Source: Thermococcus sp.
Lineage (GTDB): Archaea; Methanobacteriota_B; Thermococci; Thermococcales; Thermococcaceae
Direction: 5' to 3'
Assembly (NCBI RefSeq): GCF_015523185.1
Contig: NZ_WAKV01000065.1
Location: 1-45,318, forward strand
Length of the DNA: 45,318 nt
The notes beneath the pieces are model-generated. The model saw only the letters and a list, made by a program, of their open reading frames with translations. It searched no databases and was not told where the DNA came from. This document shows positions 20,471 to 29,842 of this stretch, in pieces (position 1 is the stretch's first letter; every line of letters begins with the position of its first letter). The translations under genes were made by a program, and so were the position numbers.

Positions 20471-21457
20471 TCACTCTTCCCCGAAAATCCTCTCCACGAA
20501 CCACTTCTCGTCGAAGAGCTTCAAATCATCGTAGCCCTGTCCGACGCCAACGAAGAGTATCGGCGCACCGATGGCGTGGCTTATGCTCAGGGCAGCCCCA
20601 CCTCTGGCGTCTGCATCGAGCTTCGTCAAAATCACTCCGTCTATCTTAACAGCTTCATTGAACTGCTTGGCCTGCTCAACAACCGCGTTTCCGCTCAGAC
20701 TGTCACCAACAAAGATAACTAGGTCAGGCTTCGTGACGCGGACTATCTTCTTCATCTCGTCCATGAGGTTCCTGTTGAGCTCGTTCCTCCCGGCGGTATC
20801 AACGAGGACCACATCAACGCCCCTCGCCTTCGCGTGCTGTATGGCATCGTAGGCTACCGCCGCCGGGTCGGCCCCGTAGTCGTGCTTGATGACCTTAACA
20901 CCGACGCGCTTCGCGTGCTCTTCCAGCTGTTCTATGGCTCCAGCCCTGAAGGTGTCGCTTGCCGCTACGACAACGCTTAACCCGTTCTTCTTCAGCCAGT
21001 GGGCGAGCTTTGCTATTGTCGTTGTCTTCCCCGAGCCGTTGAAACCGACAAAGACTATAACAAAGGGCTTCTCCTCTTTAGAGCGAATCATCTCCAAGAG
21101 GTCGAGCTTTTTCTCGGGAGTTAGAATTTCAAGTATCACTTCCCTGAGGGCGTTTTCTATAAGCTCGGCCTTGTTAGTGCCGATGCGAACCTTCTTTCCA
21201 ACAAGCTTTTCTTTGATTTTCTCCCTGAGTACTTCAACGGTCTCAAGGGCAACATCTGCCTCAAGGAGTTCAAGCTCAAGCTCATCCAGGGCATCTTCAA
21301 CGTCTTTCTCCTTAATCTCAACTTGGAGAAGCCTCTCAATGATACCCGGCTTTTTCTCAGTTTCAACTTTCTTCTCGACCTCTTTCTCCTCTTTCTCAAT
21401 CTTCTCTTCGACCTGTCTGGTGAACTTCCTGAGCTTTTCCCTGAGCTTTCCGAACAT
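20471..21457 (-). CDS. ftsY: Signal recognition particle receptor FtsY
   Basis: A 328-residue SRP GTPase that receives ribosome-nascent-chain complexes at the membrane. The N-terminal ~50 residues are a charged helix ([15 protein letters not shown]), then the four-helix N domain, then the G domain with the P-loop at 138-146 ([10 protein letters not shown]), the [15 protein letters not shown] and DTAGRNELN switch segments and [17 protein letters not shown] 21457 follows GGGTGAGAGC; a TATA box (CTTTTTATATG) lies about 30 bases upstream. Close relative of Ffh but with the FtsY-type acidic N-terminus. Confidence 0.95.
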
Positions 21458-21519
21458 GCTCTCACCCGGAGAAGAGAGGGAGAAGGCATATAAAAAGCCC
21501 TCGGCGATAGCTGGTGTCA

Positions 21520-21999
21520 TCACCACTCAGACCCGAAGCCACTCGTCATCGGGTGCCTTATGTAGGTCTTCCTCTCAACAACCCGACCGTTTTCGAGCTT
21601 ATAAACGTTCAAAATCTCTACCCCTACAGTTTCTCTCCTGTAGGCTATGAGATAGTCAAGGTAGTTCCTGAGTCTGTACCTGACTATCGAATCTCCAACG
21701 TAGCGCTCCTCGTAGAGCAGGACAAGCTTTCCCTCTTCGCGTTTGAGTCCAAGCCAGTGGAGAAGCTTCTCCCGCTCGACACCTCTTCTGGCCAGTGGAT
21801 TTACGATGAGATAAACCGGAAAGTCCGCCCGGAAGGGATTTCCAACGTAGACTTCACCCCCAACTGAGAAAGGAAGCCCTTCAGCTAGGGCCTTCCCCTT
21901 CCGCTTTACCCACGACTGGAGGTAAATCCTAGCTATCTTCTTACTCCCACCTGAGACCATCACAATGCCTGAGTCAAGGTTGAGTATCTCCCTCAGCAT
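21520..21999 (-). CDS. Hypothetical protein (Thermococcales type)
   Basis: A 159-residue cytosolic protein with mixed alpha/beta composition. An internal stretch reads [39 protein letters not shown], then a basic, Tyr-rich segment ([17 protein letters not shown]) and a C-terminal strand with a histidine (YIRHP). There is no signal peptide, membrane span or cysteine. A TATA-like AATAATTTAACC lies about 30 bases before ATG 21999, so the messenger is leaderless or nearly so. It lies upstream of ftsY on the same strand and is divergent from the BMP lipoprotein gene. No family recognised. Confidence 0.65.
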
Positions 22000-22129: not shown

Positions 22130-23440
22130 ATGCGAAAGCTATTCGGTTTGTTGTTGGTGGGCCTTATGGCCCTTAGCGTCGTGGCCAGCGGCTGTATCAG
22201 CGGTGGTGGAACTTCGACAGGAACTGCAACCAACGTGCCCACAAAGATAAACATCCTCTACACCTACACCGGTTCCTTCGGTGACCCCGCTAAGGGTAAG
22301 CAGGCCGCGCAGGCCCAGCTTCAGCAGGGTGCCTGGGTCATCTACCAGGTCGCAGGCGGAACTGGTCTCGGTGTCTTCGAGGCTGTCGGCGACTACTTGA
22401 AGGCTCACAACAAGAAGATGGGCCCACCGTTTGCAATAGGCGTTGACTCTGCCCAGGACTGGATTAAGCCCGGTGTTATAATAGCGAGCATGATGAAGCG
22501 CGTTGACGTCGGTGTTTACAACGCCGTCAAGCAGGCTGAGGAGAATCAGTTCAGAGGCGGTGTTGTCGAGCTCGGCCTTAAGGAGGGCGGCGTTAAGCTC
22601 TCAACGATAGAGGACGTTAAAGCAATGTTCGACTCCCTCCCGCCCGATGTAAGGGAGAAGAAGCTCAAAGACCTCGGATTTGAGAACGAGGACCAGCTCA
22701 TCCAGTTCCTCGAGCAGACCAGGAAGGAGGTTCCGGACTGGATTTGGCAGGCGGTTGACCAGCTCCAGAAGCAGATAATCAACGGCCAGATAATCGTCCC
22801 GAAGGCGACCTCCAAGGACCAGATTGAGCTCCTCAGGAAAGCCCAGAACTGGACTGTTATGGAGCAGTACGCCAAGGAGTGGGCCGCCAAGGAGCCAAAG
22901 CCAGAAACCTACTTCAACAAGACCCTCAACGAGAGGAAGAACACCAAGAAGATAGCCATCGTCTACGACGTCGGCGGCAGGGGTGACCTGAGCTTCAACG
23001 ACATGGCCTACATGGGCGCCGAGAGGGCCGTTAAGGAGTTCGGCCTTCAGCTCACCGAGATTCAGAGCAACAGCGAGAACGACTACCTCCCGAACCTCAG
23101 GAGCCTCGCCAAGACCGGGGAGTACGATATAATAATTGCCGTCGGATTTATGATGACCAACGCTGTCAAGCAGGTCGCCAAGGAGTATCCAAAGCAGAGG
23201 TTCGTCCTCATTGACGGTTACGACCCCAACATGCCACACAACGTCCAGATGGTCCTCTTCAAGGAGAACGAGGGTTCAGCCCTTGCAGGCGCTCTCGCGG
23301 CCCTTATAGCACTCAACGACCACAAGGACACAATAGGCATCGTCCTCGGTATGGAGATTCCGGTTCTCTATAAGTTTGAGGGTGGCTATCGCTTCGGTGC
23401 CTACTGGGCCCTCGACTACTACAAGAACCACAAGCAGTGA
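22130..23440 (+). CDS. BMP-family nucleoside-binding lipoprotein, circularly permuted
   Basis: A 436-residue lipoprotein: signal peptide ending in the lipobox VASGC (Cys22), a Gly/Thr linker, then the parts of a PnrA/BMP domain in swapped order. Residues 40-160 are the second half of the family domain (YTYTGSFGDPAKGK, YQVAGGTGLGVFEA, IGVDSAQDW). Residues 161-272 are a helical region normally found at the C-terminus. Residues 274-435 are the first half (IAIVYDVGGRGDLSFND, DIIIAVGF, LAGALAALIA, GYRFGAYWALDYYKN). In the Pfam Bmp family the order is first half then second. Directly followed by ATPase and two permeases, so the ligand is probably a nucleoside. ATG 22130 follows GAGGTG; TATA near 22070. 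Confidence 0.85.
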   Translation: MRKLFGLLLVGLMALSVVASGCISGGGTSTGTATNVPTKINILYTYTGSFGDPAKGKQAAQAQLQQGAWVIYQVAGGTGLGVFEAVGDYLKAHNKKMGPPFAIGVDSAQDWIKPGVIIASMMKRVDVGVYNAVKQAEENQFRGGVVELGLKEGGVKLSTIEDVKAMFDSLPPDVREKKLKDLGFENEDQLIQFLEQTRKEVPDWIWQAVDQLQKQIINGQIIVPKATSKDQIELLRKAQNWTVMEQYAKEWAAKEPKPETYFNKTLNERKNTKKIAIVYDVGGRGDLSFNDMAYMGAERAVKEFGLQLTEIQSNSENDYLPNLRSLAKTGEYDIIIAVGFMMTNAVKQVAKEYPKQRFVLIDGYDPNMPHNVQMVLFKENEGSALAGALAALIALNDHKDTIGIVLGMEIPVLYKFEGGYRFGAYWALDYYKNHKQ

Positions 23441-23488: not shown

Positions 23489-25024
23489 ATGGAGGAGCAA
23501 ACTCCAGTGCTCGAGATGAGAGACATTGTTAAGGTTTATCCTGACGGCACAAAGGCCCTCAAAGGGGTCACCATCAAAGTTTACGAGGGCGAAATACTCG
23601 GCCTTCTCGGCGAGAACGGTGCCGGAAAAACAACCCTCATGAAAATCCTCTTCGGAATGCTCAAACCGACAAAGGGCAAAATCTTTCTTAGGGGAAAGGA
23701 AGTTCGCTTTAAGAGTCCAGCCGATGCTATAGCGAATGGCATTGGAATGGTACACCAGCATTTCACCCTCGTTGAGGTCTTCAACGCCCTTGAGAACATC
23801 ATTCTCGGAATGGAAGGTCATGGCTTGCTCTCGAAGATTGACGTTGAAAGTGCGAGAAAGAAGCTCCAGAAGCTCATGGGCGAGCTGAACTTTCAGGTTC
23901 CGCTGGACGTTCCAGTTGAAAACCTTCCCGTCGGAATCCAGCAGAGAATTGAAATTTTAAAGATGCTATATCGTGATGTTAATATTCTGATTCTCGACGA
24001 ACCTACGGCGGTTCTTACCCCAATAGAGGTCAGGGAACTCTTTGCAGTCTTGAAAAAGCTCAAAGAACAGGGAAAGACGATAATCTTCATCAGTCACAAG
24101 CTCAACGAAGTTATGGAGATAACGGACAGAGTTACGGTCATAAGGAAAGGAGAAGTCGTCGGAACCGTCAAGACTAGCGAGGCAACACCCCAACTCCTCG
24201 CGAGGATGATGGTGGGAAGGGACGTCGTTCTTAGAATTGAAAAGCCCCCAAAAGAGCCGGGGGATGTTGTGTTTAGAGTTGAGAATCTCTGGGTGAAAGG
24301 GGACAGGGGCGAGGAAGCCGTTAGGGGACTTACCTTTGAGGTTCACGCTGGAGAGATTTTTGGTATAGCCGGTGTTGAGGGCAACGGTCAGAGCGAGCTG
24401 ATAGAAGCCATAGCAGGATTGAGAAAGATAGAAAAAGGCAAGGTTTACCTCAAGGACGTTGACATCACCGGCAAAAAACCCAGAGAGCTCTACGACATGG
24501 GAATGGCCCACATTCCAGAGGATAGAACCCACATGGGATTAATTCTAGAAATGACAGTAACTGAGAACTCCATCCTTGGAATGCACTGGAGGAAGGAGTT
24601 CTCGAAAGGTTTTCTACTCGACTGGAATAGGGCAGAAGAACACGCGAAAAGACTAATTGAGGAGTTTGAAGTCAGCGCTCCGGGAACCAAGGCACCCGTT
24701 AAAAGCCTGAGCGGCGGAAACCAGCAGAAGCTCATCGTCGCTAGGGAAGTCAGCAAAAGGCCGGAGTTCATAATAGCGGCACAGCCAACGCGTGGTGTTG
24801 ACGTTGCCTCGACGGAGTACATAAGAAACTACTTAGTTAAGCTGAGAAACGAGGACAAAGCAGTTCTTCTTGTCTCTGCGGACCTCGATGAGGTTCTCCA
24901 GCTCAGTGACAGAATGGCCATAATGTACGAAGGCCAGTTCATGGGCATAGTGAAACCCAATGAAGTTACTGAAGAACAGATTGGACTCATGATGGGAGGT
25001 GTTAAAGTTGAGCTTCAAAAATGA
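23489..25024 (+). CDS. Nucleoside-type ABC importer ATPase (double NBD, YufO/NupO type)
   Basis: A 511-residue ATPase with two nucleotide-binding domains in one chain. The first has Walker A GENGAGKTTL, a signature replaced by VGIQQRIEI and Walker B ILILDEPTAVLTP. The second has a degenerate Walker A (GVEGNGQSEL), an intact signature LSGGNQQK and a Walker B ending AAQPTRGVD, without the usual catalytic glutamate. Such asymmetry is common in the sugar/nucleoside CUT2-like importers. ATG 23489 follows GGAGGTGAT. It powers the two permeases downstream. Confidence 0.93.
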   Translation: MEEQTPVLEMRDIVKVYPDGTKALKGVTIKVYEGEILGLLGENGAGKTTLMKILFGMLKPTKGKIFLRGKEVRFKSPADAIANGIGMVHQHFTLVEVFNALENIILGMEGHGLLSKIDVESARKKLQKLMGELNFQVPLDVPVENLPVGIQQRIEILKMLYRDVNILILDEPTAVLTPIEVRELFAVLKKLKEQGKTIIFISHKLNEVMEITDRVTVIRKGEVVGTVKTSEATPQLLARMMVGRDVVLRIEKPPKEPGDVVFRVENLWVKGDRGEEAVRGLTFEVHAGEIFGIAGVEGNGQSELIEAIAGLRKIEKGKVYLKDVDITGKKPRELYDMGMAHIPEDRTHMGLILEMTVTENSILGMHWRKEFSKGFLLDWNRAEEHAKRLIEEFEVSAPGTKAPVKSLSGGNQQKLIVAREVSKRPEFIIAAQPTRGVDVASTEYIRNYLVKLRNEDKAVLLVSADLDEVLQLSDRMAIMYEGQFMGIVKPNEVTEEQIGLMMGGVKVELQK

Positions 25025-26054
25025 GCTCAGAGGATACGCAAAGCCCGTCGCTGAAAGCGTTCTAGCCATACTCATCGGCGCGTTTGCTGGAGCCCTCGTC
25101 CTCTGGTTCAGTGGCTATAGTGCAGGTTCCGCTTATTACTGGCTTATAAAAGGTTCACTGGGCTCAATAGATGGCATTGCGGAAACGCTGAGCAAATCGG
25201 CCCCGCTAATCCTAACGGCGATAACTTTCGCGATAGGGGCTAGAACCGGACTCTTCAACATCGGTGCCGAGGGAACCGTTTACTTCGGTGCGATAGCGGC
25301 GATAATCGTTACCCAGCACCTTCAGAACCCGATAGCGGGCCTCCTCGCGGGCCTTCTCATTGGGGCTCTGTGGGCCCTTCCAGCGGCGGTTCTTAAGGTC
25401 TACCGTGGGGTTCACGAAGTTATATCAACGATAATGTTCAACTGGATTGCATTCTTCCTCGTCAGCTGGCTGGCCGTCAGCGTTTACTACAACCCAAAGG
25501 ACCCCAACAGTACACTTCCAGTTCCTTCCTCAGCCAGACTCCCGCTTCTCGTAAAAAACACCAGCCTTTCGTGGGCGTTTATAATCGCGATAATAACCGC
25601 GGTGATTGTCTTTATAGTGATGTGGCACACTAAACTCGGTTATGAACTCAGAACCAGTGGTCAGAACCCAAGGGCGGCGGAATATGGTGGAATAAATCCC
25701 AGGCGCTCAGCAATCTGGTCCTTTGTCATTGGAGGAATGACTGCGGGATTAGCTGGTGCGGGGATAGTGATGGGCACGCCCCCGAGCTACGCCATAACTC
25801 AGGGACTGGCCAACGTCTACGGCTACGGTTTCGACGGAATAGGTGTTTCCCTCGTCGGAAGGAATCATCCCCTCGGCATAATTTTTGCTGGGATACTCTT
25901 CGGAGCGCTAAGTGCGGGAGCGACGGCAATGCAACAGTACGCCCATGTTCCCCTTGAGATGGTCAAGGTCATTGAGGGTATCATAATCATAGCCGTTGCT
26001 GTTCCTGGTCTGCTCGACATATTCACAAAGCTCTTCAGGAGGGGGAAGGCATGA
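25008..26054 (+). CDS. Nucleoside ABC importer permease 1
   Basis: A 348-residue BPD_transp_2 permease with about 8-10 spans. It has the family's ITFAIGARTGLFNIGAEGTVYFGA and GVHEVISTIMFNWI segments and, later, AAEYGGINPRRS, the cytoplasmic loop that meets the ATPase. The likely start is TTG 25008, seven bases after GGGAGGTG and inside the end of the ATPase gene; a GTG three codons earlier is also possible. It pairs with the second permease to form the channel. Confidence 0.9.
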   Translation: MSFKNELRGYAKPVAESVLAILIGAFAGALVLWFSGYSAGSAYYWLIKGSLGSIDGIAETLSKSAPLILTAITFAIGARTGLFNIGAEGTVYFGAIAAIIVTQHLQNPIAGLLAGLLIGALWALPAAVLKVYRGVHEVISTIMFNWIAFFLVSWLAVSVYYNPKDPNSTLPVPSSARLPLLVKNTSLSWAFIIAIITAVIVFIVMWHTKLGYELRTSGQNPRAAEYGGINPRRSAIWSFVIGGMTAGLAGAGIVMGTPPSYAITQGLANVYGYGFDGIGVSLVGRNHPLGIIFAGILFGALSAGATAMQQYAHVPLEMVKVIEGIIIIAVAVPGLLDIFTKLFRRGKA

Positions 26055-26962
26055 ACGAGACAATGGTAATCAGCCTTCTCCTAGGGTCACTCGCGGCGAT
26101 GGTTCCGATAGCCCTGACGAGTATAGGGGCAGTGATAAGCGAGAGGGCCGGTGTCGTCAACATAGGCTACGAGGGAATTCTGATGTTCGGAGCGTTCTTC
26201 GGGGCAATCTTTGCAGAGTTAGCCGGCAACGGCTGGATTGGCCTTCTTGGTGGTGCCTTTATTGGGCTCCTCTTTGGTGTCCTCCACGGTGTCTTGACGG
26301 TTTACCTGAAGGGCGACCACGTGATTCCCGGTATAGGTATTAACCTCCTCGGCTACGGTGGGGTGGCCTTTGGAATAAGGGCCTACTGGGGAACTGCCGG
26401 CCAGCACCAAGTTCCAAGTAACGCCCAGATTAGCCCGCTGTGGATGGACGCCTTCGGAAACTCCCTGAGCCCCCTAGTGCCAATAACGATAGTGGTCGCG
26501 ATAATAGCCTGGTGGGTACTGTTCAAGACGCCATTCGGGCTGAGAATAAGGGCTGTCGGTGAGAACCCCGAAGCGGCCGATGCCCTCGGAATAAACGTCG
26601 AGCTTTACCGCTTCACTGCAGTTTTAATAGCAAGCGCGTTGGCAGGTGTTGCAGGAGCTTACCTCAGCGTTGACTGGCTGGGAACTGTGACAAAGACTAT
26701 AGCCGCTGGAAGGGGTTTCATAGCGTTAGCTAACATGGTATTCAGTGGCTGGAATCCACTGATAGCCCTCGGAGGAGCGTTCCTCTTTGGATTCTTCGAC
26801 AACTTCGCCATCTACATCCAGAACAACCCATGGCTTGCAGGAACGATACCCTGGCAGTTCATAGCGACCTTGCCATATGTAGTGACGCTGATAGTAGTTG
26901 CGGGGATAATAGGGAGAGCCAGGCCACCAAAGTGGGACGGAAGGCCCTACAAGCGCGAGTGA
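26051..26962 (+). CDS. Nucleoside ABC importer permease 2
   Basis: A 303-residue BPD_transp_2 permease with about 8 spans. It shows SIGAVISERAGVVNIGYEGILMFGAFFGA at the start and ENPEAADALGINVELYR as the ATPase-contact loop. It overlaps permease 1 by four bases (ATGA), so both are made in equal amounts. It is the last gene of the importer operon, followed by five bases to the stop of the opposite-strand metal-binding protein gene. Confidence 0.92.
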   Translation: MNETMVISLLLGSLAAMVPIALTSIGAVISERAGVVNIGYEGILMFGAFFGAIFAELAGNGWIGLLGGAFIGLLFGVLHGVLTVYLKGDHVIPGIGINLLGYGGVAFGIRAYWGTAGQHQVPSNAQISPLWMDAFGNSLSPLVPITIVVAIIAWWVLFKTPFGLRIRAVGENPEAADALGINVELYRFTAVLIASALAGVAGAYLSVDWLGTVTKTIAAGRGFIALANMVFSGWNPLIALGGAFLFGFFDNFAIYIQNNPWLAGTIPWQFIATLPYVVTLIVVAGIIGRARPPKWDGRPYKRE

Positions 26963-26967
26963 TTCTT

Positions 26968-27951
26968 TCATTTTTTCAATATCACCCCAAGGGCGGTCCC
27001 CAGAACAACACCCGTAACAAGGGCGAGAAGAGCGTAGGTAACTGAAGTATTTTCACTTTTTTCCGGCTTTTCCACATTCTTTGAGGTCGATATTGCCCTG
27101 AGTATCGAAGCGGTGTTCTTTACCAGCCATTCAGTGTAGTTTCCGGAGTTCCAGAAGACCGTTATCTCCGCCAAGGGCTTTCCGCTCTTTTGGGCAAGTT
27201 CAATAGAGGCTTTTTTAAGCTGTTCCGGGCTGTCGGAGCCGTAGACTATAAGCGAGCTCTTCTCTGCCGTCGGGACGAGCTGGTCAACTCCTATCGCCGG
27301 GACCTCTTCCTCAGGTTTTATGGACGATATAGCCTTTATCCCGAGCCAATCAAGGGCGTACTCATCGGGAGGCATCTGAATTACAGCGGTGGCGTTTTTT
27401 GGTGCGAGGGACTTGTAGGCCTCAACTATTGCCAGAACCCTCTCCCTGAACTTTTCGAAGTCCCTTTGATAAGTCTGCGCGTTCGCCGGGTCAACTTCAA
27501 TCAGCGCTTTTTCGGTTGCTTCTGCTATGGCTATGGCGTTGTATGGGTCGAGCCAGACGCCGTGTGGGTTGTCCTTGTTGTGATACCAGTATTCCGTTGC
27601 ATAGTGAAAGCCGTATTTCATGTAGTCATCCACGAAGAGGACCTTCCCTGTTATCGTTCTTTCTTTTTCAAGCTCGGCAATCCTTTTCTCAACCGGCAGG
27701 TGTCCGCCCGTGGTCACTATAACCTCTGCCCGGGACAACAACTCGACCTGCTTCGCGGTCAGCTGATAGTCATGGGGGTCAACACCCGGAGGAACTATAA
27801 CTTCGACGTTTACGCCCGGGAACGCCTCCTGAACTATTGAGGCTATCGGGGCTATTGTAGTAACAACTGTAACGCTTTTTTCTGCCAAGACGCCGTTCGC
27901 TGGAACGAGGCCAAGCATCAGCAGGGCAATTATTATCAACACCTTCCTCAT
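26968..27951 (-). CDS. ZnuA/TroA-like metal ABC transporter binding protein, membrane anchored
   Basis: A 327-residue secreted protein. A signal peptide covers about residues 1-23, the TroA-like domain follows (VVTTIAPIASIVQEAFPGVNVEV, PPGVDPHDYQLTAKQ with a ligand histidine, GGHLP, PHGVWLDPYN), and a C-terminal membrane span (about 303-323) anchors it outside the cell. Cluster A-I proteins of this kind deliver Zn or Mn to an ABC importer; no permease or ATPase for metal is in the window. TATA GGTTTAAAAGG lies near 27990 and AGGGTGACC is the ribosome site. Anchoring by a C-terminal span is common in archaeal binding proteins. Confidence 0.85.
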   Translation of the reverse strand: MRKVLIIIALLMLGLVPANGVLAEKSVTVVTTIAPIASIVQEAFPGVNVEVIVPPGVDPHDYQLTAKQVELLSRAEVIVTTGGHLPVEKRIAELEKERTITGKVLFVDDYMKYGFHYATEYWYHNKDNPHGVWLDPYNAIAIAEATEKALIEVDPANAQTYQRDFEKFRERVLAIVEAYKSLAPKNATAVIQMPPDEYALDWLGIKAISSIKPEEEVPAIGVDQLVPTAEKSSLIVYGSDSPEQLKKASIELAQKSGKPLAEITVFWNSGNYTEWLVKNTASILRAISTSKNVEKPEKSENTSVTYALLALVTGVVLGTALGVILKK

Positions 27952-28060: not shown

Positions 28061-29842
28061 ATGGGTAATCTGGCGATTTTTGCGACGTCACTTGGAGCCC
28101 CCGGAACGGCTGCACTCAGGGTAACTCCCAACGTCAGCGTTGAAATAAACCCAAATGCCGAACTGCTTGGAATAGTCTACTACCTCGCCTTTGGAAACGA
28201 CACCTTCGTCATAAACAGGGAAAGCTATCTGGCCGATGTCGAGGAGCACTTCGAAAAGTTCAGAGACTCAAGGGCGGTGTTACTCCTGAAGATATACATG
28301 TCTCAGGCGAGAAACGTTCCCGAAAGGGACTACTGCTTATGAACCTTGAGTACTACCTTTTGCTCTGCTCTAATCCCCCCGAGATTGAACCCTTAACGCA
28401 ACTCAACTACCCGTGGTTTGAGGACACTTTTCTCCCAGCCCTCAGGGAGTTCGCGAGAGAAACTAATTTCACATCCTTTTACAGGGCCCATGAGAACTAC
28501 TACGCTGGAGACCTGAGGATTTATGAAAATGCCCTCAGAACACTTCCTCCCGATGAGTTCATGGGCAGAAGCGCTGGGGTTCACGACGTTACCTACGAGC
28601 TCCTTCATCCATATCTCGTCGCAGTCCACGGCCACAGCTTCAGCCCTAAAATCAACGGCACGGAAATCTGGGGTGCCGGTGAGATGCTTCCCCTCGTGAG
28701 GAGAACTCCCCAGAGAACCCTCTGGAGCTATAAAACGGCGAGAGACACCATGTTCGGCCTGCCCCTCAACGGGGACTACGTCGTGGGCGAAAACCTAAAC
28801 GAGCTCCTTTACCTCGGCTTCGTCTACCACGAGCTCGGACATGACGTCACTGTCCCGGAAATCTACTCGTACCCGAACCTGACCAGCCTTACCTACTTCG
28901 TCGACGCAATTAGGGAAGACATGCCCTACCTCAGCAGGTATGACATGCACTTCTGGAGCAGAACTGGAATGCTCTACGAGGGCTTGCCGACGCCTGGGAG
29001 AACTACGCGATAAGTCACGTAAACGAGAACTACACCCTCCCGGCAATCAACATGCAGAAGGCCTGGGGTGAGTTCTGGGTTGAGTGGCTCCTCAACAGAA
29101 CGGCCTACTATTCAAAGCCTGAGCAGGAAAACTGGAAAGCCCTTCTCAGACTACGTCTGGAAAATCCTCGACGAGATGAGGAAATTTGCGTCACCAGAAA
29201 ACGTCAGCGAGGTTTATTCGAGGGAAGTTCCGGTTACGCCCCTGAGGGCCTTCGACAGGGGGGCTGAACTCGGCAGGGTTGTGGTCGTCTACGGAACGGC
29301 CAATCCCGACCCGAGCGGGACAGAGAAGGACAGAGAAACTGCTAAAAGAATAGCGGAGAACCTTGAGAAGTTCTACTCCCAGTGGACGTCGCCGGTAAAT
29401 GTCGTTGTGAAACCGGACGTGAACGTTACGGAGTCCGACCTCGGGGAGTTATCGTACTCGTCGGTGGCCCGGTCTCGAACCGGCTTGTAAATGAACTCGA
29501 CGAAAAGTTTCCTCTCCGATTTGAGAAGGTCAATGGAGAGTGGGTTTTAACCCACGCTAGGAACGTCACGAGCTTCCTCCTCCTTGGGGAGAACAGCACA
29601 TTGAAAAAACTTACGGAAACGTTACCGTCGCCGTTGGAAGCCTGAAGAACGTTTCCGGGACGAGCGTTTTAATGGCCATCAGGAATCCATACAACGAGGA
29701 CAACTACCTAGTCTGGGTTGCTGGCGAGAACAGGAACCTGACGGCACTCTTCGAGAACCCGACCTACTACCTCAGCAGTTACGAGATATGGAGTAAAGAA
29801 GGGATAGAGCTGGGGTTCTACGTTCAGCCGGTTTCTTCCTGA
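28061..29842 (+). pseudogene. Frameshifted DUF4932-like protein gene with HELGH motif
   Basis: Several open stretches on the plus strand join into one long protein if frames are changed. The order is: NVSVEINPNAELLGIVYYLA (from 28061); NYPWFEDTFLPALREFA with VYHELGHDVTVPEIYSY (28339 frame); ADAWENYAISHVNENY and GEFWVEWLLNRTA (from about 28990); ILDEMRKFASPENVSE and VVVVYGTANPDPSG (29068 frame); VLVGGPVSNRLVNELDEK; and finally NPYNEDNYLVWVAGENRN to a TGA at 29842. At least five frameshifts. The HExxH pattern recalls a zinc metallopeptidase-like active site, and the family resembles DUF4932. A signal peptide is missing at the 5' end. It is clearly dead. Confidence 0.8.

Follow-up and report, generated by a model that had tools for sequence, protein, structure and literature searches.

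A circularly permuted, predicted nucleoside-binding lipoprotein of the NupD type in Thermococcus and its distribution among the Thermococcaceae

Binding proteins of the BMP/PnrA family (PF02608) are known from PnrA/TmpC of Treponema pallidum, PnrA of S. pneumoniae, BmpA/BmpD of Borrelia and 4pev of Aeropyrum. With these the Thermococcus protein described here has in common its family, predicted fold, pocket motifs and operon type; unlike it, however, they all have the ordinary order of segments, lack its linker and have the lipid tether adjoining the first N-lobe strand. Another relative is TK0657 of T. kodakarensis, which was named NupD in 2025, credited with a 'flipped domain arrangement' and presented in a superposition (PMC12628685). 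When the mutated nupD of an evolved T. kodakarensis strain was deleted, growth on adenosine or uridine was slower, and growth on guanosine, inosine or cytidine was zero (PMC12628685). Through TK0657 the permuted protein type is already described; the word permutation is not used in that paper, whose main text treats neither distribution, origin, linker nor operon replacement, and no further paper on Thermococcus NupD or TK0657 was found in the literature searched. Among Type I (Cluster B) binding proteins, a naturally permuted one has also been reported, the glucose-binding TpMglB-2 (Tp0684) of T. pallidum, designated 'Type Ic / Cluster Bc', which has retained ligand binding and conformational change despite the permutation (PMC4990184, 2016).

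The window analysed here is a stretch of 45,318 nucleotides from Thermococcus sp. (contig NZ_WAKV01000065.1, assembly GCF_015523185.1), in which positions 22130-23440 of the + strand form an uninterrupted frame of 436 codons encoding a BMP/PnrA lipoprotein. A Pfam profile search matched the protein to PF02608 with an E-value of 6e-51 and a score of 173.6 bits (curated cut-off 24.1), in two parts (scoring 105.5 and 70 bits) that stand in the reverse of the N- to C-terminal profile order: nt 22235-22630 (protein about 38-170), covering profile positions 152-276, lie upstream of nt 22955-23401 (protein 276-424), covering positions 4-149. The protein is thus a permuted member of PF02608, and these matches bear out a preliminary description of the window, which had seen swapped halves in an intact frame. 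Its junction positions (codon 40 at 22247 and codon 274 at 22949) are likewise correct, and an ATPase and two permeases stand next to the BMP gene as it had said. The best solved relative, 4pev, has the ordinary order. The locus is composed as follows.

20471..21999, - strand: upstream flank, ftsY and a 159-aa ORF, common to permuted and ordinary genomes
22130..22195, + strand: signal peptide and lipobox Cys (codons 1-22, ...VVASGC), from sequence; also the proposed 5' recombination zone of the cassette
22196..22246, + strand: low-complexity tether from the lipidated Cys to the first strand (codons 23-39), from sequence; its length varies among orthologues
22247..22882, + strand: former C-terminal segment, now first (PF02608 152-276 plus archaeal C-terminal helices; profile, alignment, model), carrying the pocket residues of the YTGSF, GVFEA, GVD and MMKRVD motifs
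22883..22948, + strand: new linker AAKEPKPETYFNKTLNERKNTK, codons 252-273, from former C-terminus to former N-terminus (alignment)
22949..23437, + strand: former N-terminal segment, now last (PF02608 4-149, VYDVGGRGDLSFND ... YKFEGGYRFG; profile, alignment, model), stopping in the loop that precedes strand INILYTYTG of ordinary proteins
23489..25024, + strand: cognate ABC ATPase of NupA type with two nucleotide-binding domains (operon context; permuted-operon clade with SH-aLRT 100)
24999..26054, + strand: permease 1, NupB/C type (operon context, tree)
26051..26962, + strand: permease 2, NupB/C type (operon context, tree); its 3' end is the proposed 3' recombination zone of the cassette
26968..27951, - strand: downstream flank, gene for a ZnuA-like metal-binding protein, common to permuted and ordinary genomes

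Farther downstream, at 28061-29487, a DUF4932-like gene seems to be broken into pieces of 93, 224 and about 154 codons that stand in different frames, and appears to be a pseudogene or to contain sequencing frameshifts.

The search for further copies covered 94 Thermococcaceae genomes, 61 of which belong to the genus of the window. Colinear matches of 80-95% identity occur in 21 further genomes of the genus (20 full-length and one truncated by a contig end), and the permuted order was verified in every one of the extracted genes. A 47-residue junction query, spanning only the new linker and the first residues of the former N-terminal segment, found exactly 22 of the 61 genus genomes; comparison with other Thermococcus BMP proteins, proposed earlier as a check on the permutation, returned both the same order and junction in these genomes and the ordinary order in all other Thermococcaceae that have a BMP gene. 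Outside the family, five archaeal loci, including Thermogladius and other Desulfurococcales, are ordinary as well, and since all sampled outgroups share that order, the permuted one is derived. The window comes from an 85-contig draft, in which two fragments of an ordinary gene might have been joined in the wrong order during assembly or binning; we give such an artefact practically no credence, because order and junction recur in 21 other assemblies, among them the five complete, single-contig chromosomes of G004, G010, G033, G035 and G036, and because the permuted order of T. kodakarensis was noted independently (PMC12628685). Among plasmids, 78 records matched BMP in part, each over less than 80% of the query, and at that sensitivity no permuted copy was seen.

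TK0657 is 83% identical to the window protein and, though from another species, agrees with it in permuted order, junction, linker and the nupDABC gene order of its operon, so that the window protein is of the NupD type. One of the complete genomes, G010, matches TK0657 in carrying Thr39 and Lys117 at the published genome positions (PMC12628685), and judged by this region it is T. kodakarensis KOD1 or identical to it here. The impairment of nucleoside-dependent growth on loss of nupD is published for TK0657.

Two Thermococcus loci stand apart from this pattern. The BMP operon of G022 (L121, G022:C20) has a BMP gene of ordinary segment order, resembles the divergent operon type of another genus (g12, 47% identical) and is found without the usual ftsY/159-aa ORF flanks; it is probably a further replacement or acquisition. 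G081, which carries the permuted operon, also has a single 1071-aa frame (L085:7797-11009; G081:C1, around 58456-59562) in which a BMP domain of ordinary order is joined to what is likely a membrane-spanning stretch, to DUF7662 and to a Ser/Thr protein kinase domain; this fusion is likely to be a nucleoside-sensing receptor kinase.

Alignment places the cut precisely. Ordinary proteins read ...GYRFGVKWAEDYYKQKTGKDVNIDVLYTYTGSF... across it and end in ...MEELAKQW(ESS) or slightly earlier; the permuted fold begins with INILYTYTGSF, reaches ...MEQYAKEW, passes through the linker to KIAIVYDVGG... and ends at ...GYRFGAYWALDYYKNHKQ. An extra helical region had been thought to join the old ends, and about 22 residues of it (codons 252-273) are indeed new, being kept in 22 of 22 permuted genes and absent from every ordinary-order protein in a comparison made against ordinary termini; most of the remainder, however, is the C-terminal extension that archaeal BMP proteins ordinarily have. 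The cut is the loop between a helix and the following strand, H136-160 and E167-172 in the ordinary control model. When placed by the lobe limits of BmpA (N-domain 8-115 and 243-269, C-domain 116-242 and 270-322; PMC13325309) and by the mapping of the pocket motifs, it falls within the C-terminal lobe and not at the hinge, and the YxxGF motif that had been taken for the hinge sits in a helix of this same lobe. The two halves are therefore not the two lobes, and from the sequence the three ordinary hinge crossings should be kept and the linker should add a fourth, running from C-lobe to N-lobe. A fourth crossing is known from TpMglB-2, in which, by contrast, the first three N-lobe strands have moved to the C-terminus by a cut in the N-lobe and the permuted part is 13% identical to its ordinary counterpart, against about 70-75% in the window protein. 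Since Type Ic / Cluster Bc implies a cut inside the N-lobe, the window protein, cut between H136-160 and E167-172 in a C-lobe segment, falls outside it.

Structure prediction, which had been suggested as a further check, gave a confident AlphaFold2 model of the permuted protein (pLDDT 93.2, pTM 0.92), in which the elements of the ordinary fold appear in rotated order; the input alignment contained ordinary half-proteins, by which this confidence may have been raised. The elements run from E6-11 to H206-219, through a short E/H linker, and from E239-246 to H376-399. An ordinary-order control (pLDDT 92.2) has the same elements in the other rotation, so that in the models the permuted series is the control series rotated. 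Against PnrA structures, Foldseek aligned 154-168 columns of the permuted model and 359-386 of the control; as Foldseek aligns sequentially, the permuted model was matched one half at a time, and these half matches agree with a permutation in the manner of a sequential alignment and not of a rotated superposition. The rotated equivalence itself is drawn from sequence, from the order of the elements and from the superposition published for TK0657. In a separate Foldseek match, PDB 5er3 of Rhodopirellula baltica aligned sequentially with the permuted model over 407 columns (TM 0.58 of target, rmsd 9.1, 10% identity), which may reflect lobe pseudo-symmetry or another permuted binding protein.

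All nucleoside pocket motifs are present, namely the Phe of SFN, the Asp of LIDG, the Phe of KFE, the Phe of GSF, the Val-Asp of GVD and the Lys of MMK, as judged by alignment with PnrA-Sp and Lbp sequences and assigned to numbered BmpA residues (PMC13325309) by motif order and spacing. We infer that nucleosides are bound in the cleft usual for the family. The N-lobe would supply the SFN Phe and the LIDG Asp, and the C-lobe would be built from both ends of the chain, with the C-terminal segment contributing the YKF Phe and the N-terminal one the GSF Phe, the GVD Val-Asp and the MMK Lys; the lipid tether would be attached to a strand of the C-lobe instead of the first N-lobe strand.

The permuted form arose once within the sampled family. 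In a BMP tree computed with the halves restored to a common register, the permuted proteins form one clade (SH-aLRT 100), and the same holds for trees of each half alone (99 and 96) and for the ATPase and permease tree, in which the permuted operons form a clade with SH-aLRT 100; in the sampled trees no permuted gene was grouped with ordinary-type permeases. Fusion and fission are a known route to permuted proteins, and the nearest ordinary rows do differ somewhat between the half-trees, as might be expected had halves of two BMP paralogues been fused; we nevertheless regard such a chimera as unlikely, given that each half yields a single permuted clade, that by distance both halves are near some of the same ordinary lineages (a placement of weak support, 79 and below for the A half) and that among permuted genomes a second, ordinary-type BMP operon was seen in G005 alone. 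G005 is the one genome within the family with both types (L070, permuted; L086, ordinary), each beside its own copy of the flanking 159-aa ORF. Because this bin is 53% complete, a strain mixture is likely, and the double operon may come from a mixed bin.

Both operon types occupy one site, between ftsY/159-aa ORF and the znuA-like gene. The flanking-gene tree requires 8 switches between forms, and a DNA tree of RpoB and EF-2 from 30 genomes requires 9, at least 7 of them by well-supported branches, and rejects a single permuted clade (AU p 2e-78), so that vertical inheritance of the permuted form is rejected. Four pairs of permuted and ordinary sister genomes were compared for breakpoints (G004/G014, G010/G020, G024/G031 and G081/G076). 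DNA identity is mostly high upstream, drops within the first 25 codons or so, remains at about 55-80% through the operon (up to 87% in ATPase stretches) and recovers close to the end of permease 2 and on into znuA. G004 and G081, which are both permuted but not sisters, are 86% identical across the operon and mostly 66-82% on both sides. The simplest reading is that whole ordinary operons were replaced at the same site by recombination in the conserved signal-peptide region and at the end of the last permease. Both types are old and divergent, with permease 1 only 57-66% identical between them, which could instead point to an ancient duplication followed by differential loss; this hidden paralogy is still less probable than a paralogue fusion, for both types have the same flanks, sister species are highly identical to either side of the operon and differ mainly within it, and nearly no genome has both types, the exception being the incomplete bin G005 with its two flanking-ORF copies. 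Apart from replacement by transfer, the pattern may reflect an old polymorphism of two alleles sorted within a recombining population, a reading that the data do not separate from it. It is further possible, though we lean against it, that the permuted and ordinary operons have long persisted as two alternative alleles of one locus, a cassette of about 4.7 kb from signal peptide to permease 2 that is exchanged by recombination, both being kept for a functional difference such as substrate range, tether geometry or the avoidance of attack on a surface protein.

Strong purifying selection acts on both halves, with dN/dS of 0.01-0.09 in each between close pairs of permuted genes; in the linker, which has few sites, the values are more variable (0 to 0.65). 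The earlier view of a natural, functional permutation in a working operon is supported by the shared junction, by dN/dS, by the fold and by T. kodakarensis genetics, but the permutation is not peculiar to this genome.

The standard route to a circular permutation is a tandem duplication whose outer halves are then lost. In the present case an ancestor within the Thermococcaceae would have duplicated the gene in frame and in tandem and then lost the outer halves while keeping the signal peptide, and the permuted operon would later have been fixed in several species as recombination put it in place of the ordinary one at this locus. The kept signal peptide fits this route; no tandem-duplicated intermediate was found among the sampled genes, and the mechanism of origin is accordingly inferred. 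Microhomology at AAGATA had also been suggested to have helped the rearrangement. The word does occur at both junctions, at 22244 and 22949, a few bases from the 22246 and 22946 region first given, but it encodes Lys-Ile in frame at both, has 24 copies on the + strand of the window and 27 on the other, and is absent at the first junction of seven permuted genes (G004, G073, G081, G082, G035, G021 and G027), so that it offers no evidence for microhomology and the suggestion is rejected.

Taken as a whole, it is very probable that the window gene is an orthologue of nupD, encoding the permuted, lipid-anchored BMP/PnrA binding subunit of the NupDABC nucleoside importer, with one origin, replacement of operons at the same site, binding in the usual cleft and descent from a duplication. 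As far as the literature searched shows, the single origin, the strict co-inheritance with a distinct ATPase and permease set and the repeated replacement of the ordinary operon have no published precedent. Two warnings follow for practice, that profile searches return such permuted proteins as two partial matches and that the NupD operon is no guide to species trees. Most natural permutations have been seen between proteins too diverged to reveal their origin or importance. Here orthologues of the two orders share about 70% identity, lie at the same site in sister species and always come with matching permeases, and the genetically tractable T. kodakarensis is among the species with the permuted form, so that direct tests are possible. 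If the two operons are indeed long-lived alleles of one locus, the genus would be a natural experiment on the effects of permutation in a binding protein and its transporter.
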